A DNA stretch of 64,000 bases from an uncultured bacterium (GTDB lineage Bacteria > Verrucomicrobiota > Kiritimatiellia > RFP12 > UBA1067): NCBI GenBank assembly GCA_902799385.1, contig CADCAK010000010.1, positions 1 through 64,000 on the forward strand. The letters are read 5' to 3'. The notes beneath the pieces were generated by a model. The model saw only the letters and a list, made by a program, of their open reading frames with translations, was not told where the DNA came from and ran no database searches. Of the stretch, positions 1-50,154 are shown one piece after another. The translations under genes and the position numbers were made by a program. Numbering within the stretch: position 1 is the first letter of the stretch; every line of letters starts with the position of its first letter.

Positions 1-1773
1 GCCGCCGACCGTCGCATCCGCGCCGAACGTCACGCTCGCCGCCGTGACTGCGGCATCGACCGTCGCCGCGTCGCCGGCGTTCCTGAAGAACGCGGCGGTA
101 GAGTCGTACCAGTCGCCCGCAATGCCGTTCTTGGACCACTTGCCGCTCGTGTGCCAGCCAGCGCCGGACGAGCCATCATTCCACACATATTCGCCAGCGA
201 GAGTGTCGGAGATTACGACCTTCGTGCCTCCGGGGGCAAGAACGAGCGCGTAACGGCTCGCGTCGGGGCCCGTGACCGCGATCGCATCCACCTCGGACTG
301 TATGAACGTGCCGTTGCCTTCGTTGATCTCTAACACCGTCGTACCGTCTGCGACGCCAGCAGGAGGTATCTCGACGGCAACGAGCGCGGCCTTTGCCTCT
401 GTCGTGAGCGACAGGACTGTTCCCGCGACATTCGTTGTCCCGCCAGTATAGGACGGAGTGCCTGAAAGCGTAATGGTGCCGCCGCCGGTGAATGTCACCG
501 CGCCGACCTCCTCGGGCTTGTTTTGAAGAGCGGCACTAATGGTTATGCCATGACCATTTGAATCGAACGTCGCACCGTTCGCGCCTACATAGACGTTCAA
601 CCCGTTCTGGGCCTTGATAAGTTCTGTGGAATTGCCAATTGTGCCTAGATGACGAATCGTGCCGTTGTCGATTGTCAACTCTCCAACACCATTCGCAACG
701 TTCTTGTATATTGTATCAGTCTCAATAACACCGCCGTTCGTGACATAAACGGATGCCTTTGTAGGGGAGTCTCCATAGCAAAGATAAATATTCCCTTTGA
801 CCACAACGCTACCACCATTTACATTGAGCGTGCCAGTGGCACTGTTTCCGTGCGCAATAGTCATATTGCCGTTGGAACCGGTATTTTCATACCGCCCGCC
901 AGCATTGACCGTCAGGGTGCCGGTGGAAGTCTCGCCAAGACGCATATAGGATCCTGTGTTGACTATAGCGCCGCCGTTGTTTATCACGACACTACCCGTT
1001 CCGCCATTACCTACGCGAATCAAGTTTGCCACCGACATCGTACTACCGTTGACCACGAACTCTCCCGTGCCTCCGCTTCCAACTGTGATCCATCTTGTAA
1101 CAGACAGCGTACCATCATTGACTTCAACTTTGCCCGTTGATCCTGATTTCAAGCCCACAAGAAGATCCTGTCTGCAACTAACCGTGGCATTGGGGTTGTC
1201 AAGCTTCAGAAGACCCTTGTATATGTTGAAATTACCTGTTGATGTAAGACTGACCTTGCTGTTGCCGTCTATCGTAACATATCCGCCGATATCGTAGCTC
1301 CGATCGGACGTACCTAGATTGAATGCCGCCCCACTGTACGTACCGCGCTTTATCGTCAGCCAACCATCGGTTCTCCTATTGTCTTGAGTACCATTGGTGC
1401 TGCCGATGTAAAAAATGCCGGTGGTAGACATGCCATGCGCATCGTTGCCTGTAGTGAAAACAAAGGGATTGCTTTCTGTCGAGGCGTTGTCAATTGCAAT
1501 TTTTGACCCCGTAAAAGAAACCGCAGAATCAAAGTTGACGGTGTAGTTTACAATATTGTAAGAAGTGCACCTGAAAAGCACTATTGCATCTTTTGTCCCC
1601 GGTTTCGTACCATCCCACCAATTCGCTGCAGTGGAATAATTCCTGTTACCGCCATTGCCATACCAATACGCATATCCGTATGCCGTCTGCAACGCGCCAA
1701 ATGCAAAGACAGCGGCGAGGAGATAACTTACAACTTTACCCCCCCCCCCATGGTTTTTATCAATTATGTTCAT
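1..1773 (-). CDS. Giant secreted repeat adhesin / autotransporter-like protein (N-terminal part)
   Basis: The frame is open from the ATG at 1773 to the window edge, 591 codons, so the C-terminus lies outside. An AAGGAG Shine-Dalgarno precedes the ATG. The N-terminus is MNIIDKNHGGGG, then a lysine and a hydrophobic stretch (VVSYLLAAVFAFGALQTAYG) that looks like a signal peptide. The rest is many imperfect strands of the type GTLTVNGG / GTGEFVVNGS / GTGSVVINNGG, about 20-25 residues each, as in beta-helical passenger domains of autotransporters and PEP-CTERM-like adhesins. A second unit begins near position 190 with an EYVWNDGSSG-like WxG motif that echoes residues AYWYGNGG near the start. Glycine is dense and cysteine rare. 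I infer a surface or extracellular role; the anchoring domain is not visible. The four glycines are encoded by a G11 tract (see the separate entry). Confidence 0.8.
   Translation of the reverse strand, partial: MNIIDKNHGGGGKVVSYLLAAVFAFGALQTAYGYAYWYGNGGNRNYSTAANWWDGTKPGTKDAIVLFRCTSYNIVNYTVNFDSAVSFTGSKIAIDNASTESNPFVFTTGNDAHGMSTTGIFYIGSTNGTQDNRRTDGWLTIKRGTYSGAAFNLGTSDRSYDIGGYVTIDGNSKVSLTSTGNFNIYKGLLKLDNPNATVSCRQDLLVGLKSGSTGKVEVNDGTLSVTRWITVGSGGTGEFVVNGSTMSVANLIRVGNGGTGSVVINNGGAIVNTGSYMRLGETSTGTLTVNAGGRYENTGSNGNMTIAHGNSATGTLNVNGGSVVVKGNIYLCYGDSPTKASVYVTNGGVIETDTIYKNVANGVGELTIDNGTIRHLGTIGNSTELIKAQNGLNVYVGANGATFDSNGHGITISAALQNKPEEVGAVTFTGGGTITLSGTPSYTGGTTNVAGTVLSLTTEAKAALVAVEIPPAGVADGTTVLEINEGNGTFIQSEVDAIAVTGPDASRYALVLAPGGTKVVISDTLAGEYVWNDGSSGAGWHTSGKWSKNGIAGDWYDSTAAFFRNAGDAATVDAAVTAASVTFGADATVGG
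1739..1749 (-). repeat. G11 homopolymer inside the adhesin reading frame
   Basis: Eleven consecutive C on the plus strand, read as G11 on the coding strand, cover codons 9-12 of the adhesin, immediately upstream of its signal peptide. With 11 G the frame continues through the whole passenger. With 10 G the next codons would be GTA AAG TTG TAA, stopping at once. This is the classic layout of a slipped-strand phase-variation tract. Confidence 0.85.
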
Positions 1774-49351: not shown

Positions 49352-50154
49352 TTATGCCATCGACGCCTGAAGCTTCTTGACCTGCGCAAGCGAAAGGCCG
49401 GAAAACTTCGCGATATCCTTCAGCGCAAGCATCCCACTCTCCAGCATCCGCTTCGCCGTCGCAAGCATGGTCTTGCGCTCGCCCTTGCGCTCGCCCTTGC
49501 GCTCGCCCTCAGCCTTGCCCTCGGCCTTGGCCTCGGCCGCACGGCGTTCCGCGAATTCTTCTACTGCTTTGCACATGGCGCGCCTCCCTTCTTCTGAATT
49601 CTTAAACTTGTTGACAACTTGTTGACTTGCCTCTTTAGAATGTCGAAATACATTTCGGACGCATCGCGGCACAACAGATCGTGTACGAGCCGACCAATCT
49701 CTGTTGCGCTTTTCGTCGCTCCGTTCACATAGATGATATGAGTTCCGTCACCAAGACATTCCCCCGTATCATCCTCCCGCCGCTGATATGAGTATGAGTC
49801 TTTTCCGCGTTTCATCACGTCGTTCTCTGTGATGAAGATGACGTATGTGTCGCGCAACTCTCCGAAGTCCTCGCCCGACTTCAGCGCGTTCGCGTCCATC
49901 AGCGCGGAATTGTACCTCGCGCGCTTCGGCTCCGCGCCCTTGTCGGCACGTTGTATCTCGATGTCGTATTCCCTGCCCTTGGAATCTCTCGCGAACACGT
50001 CGAACCTTACGCCGCGCCCCTGAAGGTTCTTGATCGGACACTCGGTCTGCGACTTGACCACCTTCAGATCCTTCTTGCCGAGGATGATCCGTAGCATCAG
50101 CTCGATGCACTCCGGCGCGTTTTCGAGGCACTTCGACATGAAGTTGTCGTCCAT
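49352..50154 (-). pseudogene. Frameshifted Rpn-family PD-(D/E)XK nuclease/transposase-like gene
   Basis: Two frames together make a complete Rpn protein of about 265 residues. Frame 1 (50154 to 49561) carries the nuclease domain: FMSKCLENAPECIELMLRI, then GRGVRFDVFARDS and YDIEIQRADKG, with the D and ExQ catalytic pattern of the PD-(D/E)XK fold, up to the helix FDILKRQVNK. Frame 2 (to 49352) resumes with NKFKNSEEGRRAMCKA and ends in LALKDIAKFSGLSLAQVKKL. The switch lies exactly at an 11-bp tandem duplication (49605-49626). The truncated copy at 1824 has a single unit there and reads through. Acidic-basic repeats (GERKGERKGERK) sit before the C-terminal tail. DNA identity to the 1824 copy is high, so the two are recent relatives. 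Confidence 0.8.
49605..49626 (-). repeat. 11-bp perfect tandem duplication causing the frameshift
   Basis: aacttgttgac is present twice in a row. Loss of one unit would restore the Rpn reading frame. Confidence 0.9.

Follow-up and report, generated by a model that had tools for sequence, protein, structure and literature searches.

A run of eleven G residues close to the start codon of an exported-protein gene is, we hold with high confidence, a translational contingency locus at which slippage toggles a beta-helix surface protein. The gene lies at the beginning of the window, by which is meant the whole 64-kb stretch of DNA analyzed, and comparable leader tracts are found elsewhere in its own genome and in related genomes; judged from these sequences, random slippage very probably switches surface proteins of the clade between ON and OFF states. 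The organism belongs to the Kiritimatiellae, a rumen and gut lineage that is largely uncultured. Slipped-strand mispairing on poly-G tracts during replication is an established process, and most of the known poly-G contingency loci come from pathogens and commensals, among them Campylobacter, Helicobacter, and Neisseria.

The window gene occupies positions 1–1773 of the minus strand. Its ATG start codon (1771–1773, −), recognized in the sequence and by pattern search, stands seven bases downstream of a Shine-Dalgarno sequence, AAGGAG (1781–1786, −), and opens a frame of 591 codons that reaches window position 1. The minus strand reads AAGGAG-AACTAAA-ATG AAC ATA ATT GAT AAA AAC CAT GGG GGG GGG GGT AAA GTT. 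Leader codons 1–8 (MNIIDKNH; 1750–1773, −) align with a conserved type, MK.I..N.H(R), common to the paralogues, and codons 9–12 hold the G11 tract (1739–1749, −), the putative slippage switch. Directly after the tract comes the hydrophobic core of a signal peptide, residues 14–28 (1690–1734, −), which is indicated by hydropathy and by an AlphaFold helix over the same residues in a low-confidence N-terminus. The initial annotation of this DNA had placed eleven G near the 5′ end of a 591-codon frame and had held that ten G would close it, and both statements are exact: the G10 version continues GTA AAG TTG TAA after the tract, ending four codons on and 14 codons in total, while the G12 version meets a stop right behind the tract, after 12 codons. 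A genuine start codon downstream of the tract, which that annotation had named as the finding that would speak against a switch, was sought and rejected. The later in-frame starts (TTG at codon 28, GTG at codon 65, and ATG at codon 115) fall at or past the point where the signal core ends. Initiation there would cost the protein its signal peptide, and none of these starts has a Shine-Dalgarno sequence. The same lack of a Shine-Dalgarno sequence applies to an ATG within CCATGG at the tract edge (1749–1751, −), which needs 12 G (or 9 or 15) to be in frame.

Nowhere else in the window does a G run reach 8. Markov models of order 1 to order 5 fitted to the window predict 0.0006–0.016 tracts of 11 or more G in 64 kb, and the window gene thus carries a homopolymer of 8 or more G in its 5′ coding region above chance expectation. 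The 2.7-Mb metagenome-assembled genome (MAG) contains about 15 tracts that are at least 10 G long vs. 0.2–2.9 expected under such models. Tracts in this genome were located by pattern search and then retrieved as sequence stretches. Four paralogues have a tract at the same position as the window gene: C64:2447 (G10, MKAITDNIHRGGGKVLNYLLAASF) is ON over at least 828 codons, C91:240 (G10) is ON with a 61-aa ORF, C20:1534 (G12) is OFF with its +1 frame open for at least 524 codons, and C24:10274 (G13) is OFF with a −1 frame of 830 codons. Together with the window gene these give five same-position tracts of 10, 10, 11, 12, and 13 G, three in frame and two out. Common to the paralogues is a 5′ module composed of a ribosome-binding site (RBS), an ATG, a leader of 8–9 codons, the G tract, and a signal peptide, and the leaders of C20 and C64 are about 91% identical as DNA. 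At a further locus, on C74 (L044), a leader of this type with G13 is followed by an intergenic repeat in place of a signal peptide. Two more paralogues encode HRGVGK or HRGIGK at the tract position without a G run, and in C13a an HRGVGK leader precedes a body almost the same as the one in C91a. Such near-identical bodies behind different leaders suggest recombination between leaders and bodies, with slippery versions of the leader existing alongside fixed ones.

Leader tracts are also found among relatives. Genomes were searched for a Shine-Dalgarno sequence, an ATG, 9 to 39 nt, and G10 in succession, with the backward pattern as control. The pattern occurs in 14 of 61 genomes of the genus vs. 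4 of 61 for the control. At the level of the order, 42 of 162 genomes contain it, mostly members of the window's own family (f1). Phylum-wide, matches outside the family are mostly isolated and single and lack a consistent leader; several occur together in G224, a genome of the class. A strand-control sample comprised stretches fetched solely for carrying a tract (75 G-tracts and 75 C-tracts), and in it the leader arrangement was present at 8/75 G-tracts vs. 0/75 C-tracts (Fisher p 0.006). Since just 8 of the 75 G-tracts have this arrangement, most poly-G tracts of the clade (67/75) are located elsewhere. Among 51 leader tracts that were fetched, 39 are spanned in one frame by an ORF at least 250 codons long. 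The alternative frames of these 39 genes stop within 12–46 codons in 77 of 78 cases; gain or loss of a single unit closes the frame early, and only one frame is long. As assembled, 16 of the genes are ON and 23 OFF (p 0.31 vs. 1/3), and the ON share is compatible with the 1/3 expected under neutral drift. The share is higher (15/28, nominal p 0.03) for genes with no Met between the tract and the signal core.

Slipped-strand mispairing in replication is the simplest cause of this pattern. Polymerase would slip on the G run during replication, the tract would lose or gain a G, and the frame from start codon to signal peptide would open or close with tract length. At 11 G, and in principle also at 8 or 14, leader and signal peptide would be fused in frame and the beta-helix protein made and exported; at 10 or 12 G translation would end within 14 codons, leaving the cell without the protein. 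Because several loci of the genome have the same 5′ module, each cell may carry a random subset of the proteins. We infer slippage within one population, a surface location, an adhesive function, and a selective advantage. Loss of mismatch repair was considered as a cause and rejected, as MutS and MutL are both found in the genome and mismatch repair does not look lost; their presence does not exclude slippage.

Tract length varies among closely similar genes. Tract pairs with similar flanks are unequal in length in 9 of 15 cases, a count in which the pairs are not all independent and the lengths are read from assemblies, where short-read data may lead to miscounted homopolymers. In the clearest pair, near-identical genes from two species, L124 has G13 and is OFF and the G058:C52 gene (L200/L182) has G11 and is ON, with 30-nt flanks identical on both sides. 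Length differences among near-identical copies are thus found in paralogues and cross-species pairs, not within one strain, and a search for same-species or viral copies in which to compare lengths found none among viral contigs and, among genome contigs, only relatives at 31–32% identity. These differences bear on the least improbable of the alternatives, itself very unlikely, namely programmed slippage of RNA polymerase or the ribosome, in which a fixed fraction of products would shift frame from a single DNA length and the gene would be dosed, not switched. Long G runs can promote transcriptional slippage, and the OFF genes do retain undecayed ORFs of 279–1,652 codons downstream. A dosing device, however, would be expected to keep a fixed length and frame relation, whereas near-identical genes differ in tract length and all three frame classes are occupied roughly as under drift.

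Intact ORFs behind out-of-frame tracts also count against a static tract. In that reading, which is less probable again, the GGG codons serve to supply a glycine-rich segment ahead of the signal peptide, and the genes found out of frame are either pseudogenes or carry tract lengths wrongly assembled. The paralogues with non-slippery codons retain a similar peptide (HRGVGK, HRGIGK) without a G run, so that the peptide itself may matter. Homopolymers can moreover be misestimated in MAG assemblies: a 25-G run at a contig end (C67:5323–5347, L042) looks artefactual and is probably a product of sequencing or assembly. Yet of the 39 genes, the 23 with an out-of-frame tract retain intact downstream ORFs of hundreds of codons, the tracts are in excess over chance, and similarly placed tracts occur in independently assembled genomes. 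A two-color poly-G sequencing artefact was rejected for the internal tracts, whose context is conserved, and kept for the C67 run. It is scarcely credible that 5′ poly-G modulates initiation at a downstream start, by shaping the mRNA or by mimicking a Shine-Dalgarno sequence, and does not work via the reading frame, for although an in-frame ATG stands closely behind the tract in L203, L206–L208, L213, L214, L218–L220, L229, and C1:134321, the window gene and 27 others have no Met between tract and signal core, and the later starts of the window gene would forfeit the signal peptide.

The protein that the replicative switch would control is predicted, from its modeled structure and structural matches, to contain a right-handed parallel beta-helix passenger over residues 41–464 (382–1653, −). 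AlphaFold2, given a seven-sequence alignment, returns a beta-helix with a mean pLDDT of 73; residues 180–430 are mostly above 80, and the greater part of them exceeds 85. VIA-align matches the predicted fold to pertactin (Z 21.8), TibA (20.5), UpaB (20.1), and Ag43 (18.4), and also to tailspikes and polysaccharide lyases, so the beta-helix fold does not prove adhesion; Foldseek matches are weak (best E 0.04). A sequence search of the PDB with the window protein gave no meaningful match, and Pfam and NCBIfam gave no confident domain, TIGR04393 (E 0.0064) being under the cut-off. Some relatives have PATR/autotransporter repeats or lectin-like domains. A signal peptide followed by a beta-helical passenger, as in type V autotransporters, is thus predicted for the window gene; a C-terminal membrane beta-barrel (Pfam Autotransporter) was not found in the complete relatives scanned, the window gene being truncated. 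The initial annotation had called the gene a phase-variable giant adhesin. Phase variation gains strong support from the paralogue tract lengths, the 39 genes, the near-identical pairs, and the strand control. The word giant is not supported, since contig C10 ends at window position 1 and cuts the gene short, and relatives measure about 280 to 1,840 residues; adhesin goes further than the features predicted, which are a beta-helix fold and an export signal.

A search of genome contigs with the window protein identified six loci (L235–L240), relatives at 31–32% identity. The named sources are a yak-rumen Kiritimatiellae MAG, RUG assemblies, which we take to be from rumen, and one assembly labelled Lentisphaerae. 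Five of the six leaders are tract-free, and L239 has G11, out of frame. With five homologous passengers behind tract-free leaders, the putative poly-G switch is, on this comparison, a separable 5′ module. At their other end, exported proteins of the clade have a short C-terminal tail of the form G-[FMLT]-x-[IV]-[IV]-[VIF]-[RKN], present in 22 of 30 closed leader-tract ORFs and, among the 753 ORFs that are at least 200 aa long, in 41 vs. about 1 expected (bearers include L150, L196, L198, L200–L202, L206–L210, L223, L229, L235–L238, L240, and others). No sorting model of Pfam or NCBIfam matched the tail, which is possibly a new C-terminal sorting signal. The proteins here are like the autotransporters pertactin, TibA, UpaB, and Ag43 in the predicted right-handed beta-helix (Z 18–22), in the signal peptide, and in the PATR/autotransporter-type repeats of the window protein's relatives. 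They are unlike them in that no C-terminal beta-barrel family was found in complete relatives, which end in the G-x-x-[IV]-[IV]-[VIF]-[RKN] tail. More tentatively, and as a proposal that we would not yet favor, a transferable cassette of RBS, leader, poly-G, and signal peptide may recombine onto unrelated exported proteins with the new C-terminal tail in one Kiritimatiellae family, giving these uncultured gut symbionts a stochastic surface repertoire, while promoters would hold poly-G tracts of a second set.

The closest known systems are those of Campylobacter, where poly-G tracts of 8 or more mediate gene switching (PhasomeIt, PMC6321876), and Neisseria. The poly-G genes of both (PMC6321876, PMC5953494) are like those described here in having at least 8 consecutive G on the coding strand within a CDS, frame-dependent ON and OFF states, many loci per genome, and an ON share near the neutral expectation. 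The present genes differ in that they belong to a different phylum, the tract is in a shared leader just before the signal peptide, the same module type precedes dissimilar exported proteins, and MutS and MutL are present. Akkermansia muciniphila, a member of the same wider group (PVC), also has homopolymer-containing genes: the accessible portion of its report lists long tracts in 17 genes, including G8 in a capsule gene, and proposes phase variation (PMC3048395). That portion highlights mainly capsule genes and describes no leader/signal-peptide family (PMC3048395). A literature search found no report linking the Kiritimatiellae with phase variation. The mechanism is of the classical poly-G contingency type, unusual in its leader arrangement, common to many exported proteins, and apparently unreported in the Kiritimatiellae. 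If this is true, the large beta-helix proteins on any one cell would be a random set, which would point to diversifying selection in the gut driven by phage, immunity, or substrate, and MAG annotations that name OFF alleles as pseudogenes would be wrong.

Poly-G tracts also occur outside leaders. In relatives some lie within the promoter-like sequences of exported-protein genes or directly ahead of them (L103, L139, L141, L142, L143, L144, L145, and L153). One example reads AAAAAGTTA-G10-TAATTTATTGCAAAT followed by TTGAC-N17-ATATC, another TTGACA-G12-TAATTGA-TACAAT, and L103 combines a tract in the promoter with one in the leader. In the window's own genome, G10 at C1:134321 (L032:6322–6331) immediately precedes the ATG of an exported-protein gene whose product, by our assumption, resembles a C10-type peptidase. 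An intergenic repeat with a G12–G14 run is found at C6:34965, C64:7999, C68:3075, and C77:2938 (L033, L041, L043, and L045). The 3′ half of this repeat follows the adhesin-type leader in C74 (L044), and its 5′ half resembles the start of the window's Rpn-like gene (MTT..N.DGRGVAVNARRTRV). That gene, an Rpn-family nuclease/transposase-like ORF at 1824–2282 (−) with a likely start, MTTSLQN, at 2282, is the upstream neighbor of the window gene, about 50 nt away on the same strand; its TIGR01784 match (E 2.5e-4) is under the curated cut-off. A second such ORF is at window positions 49355–49818, and the genome has several copies, some of them near poly-G tracts.
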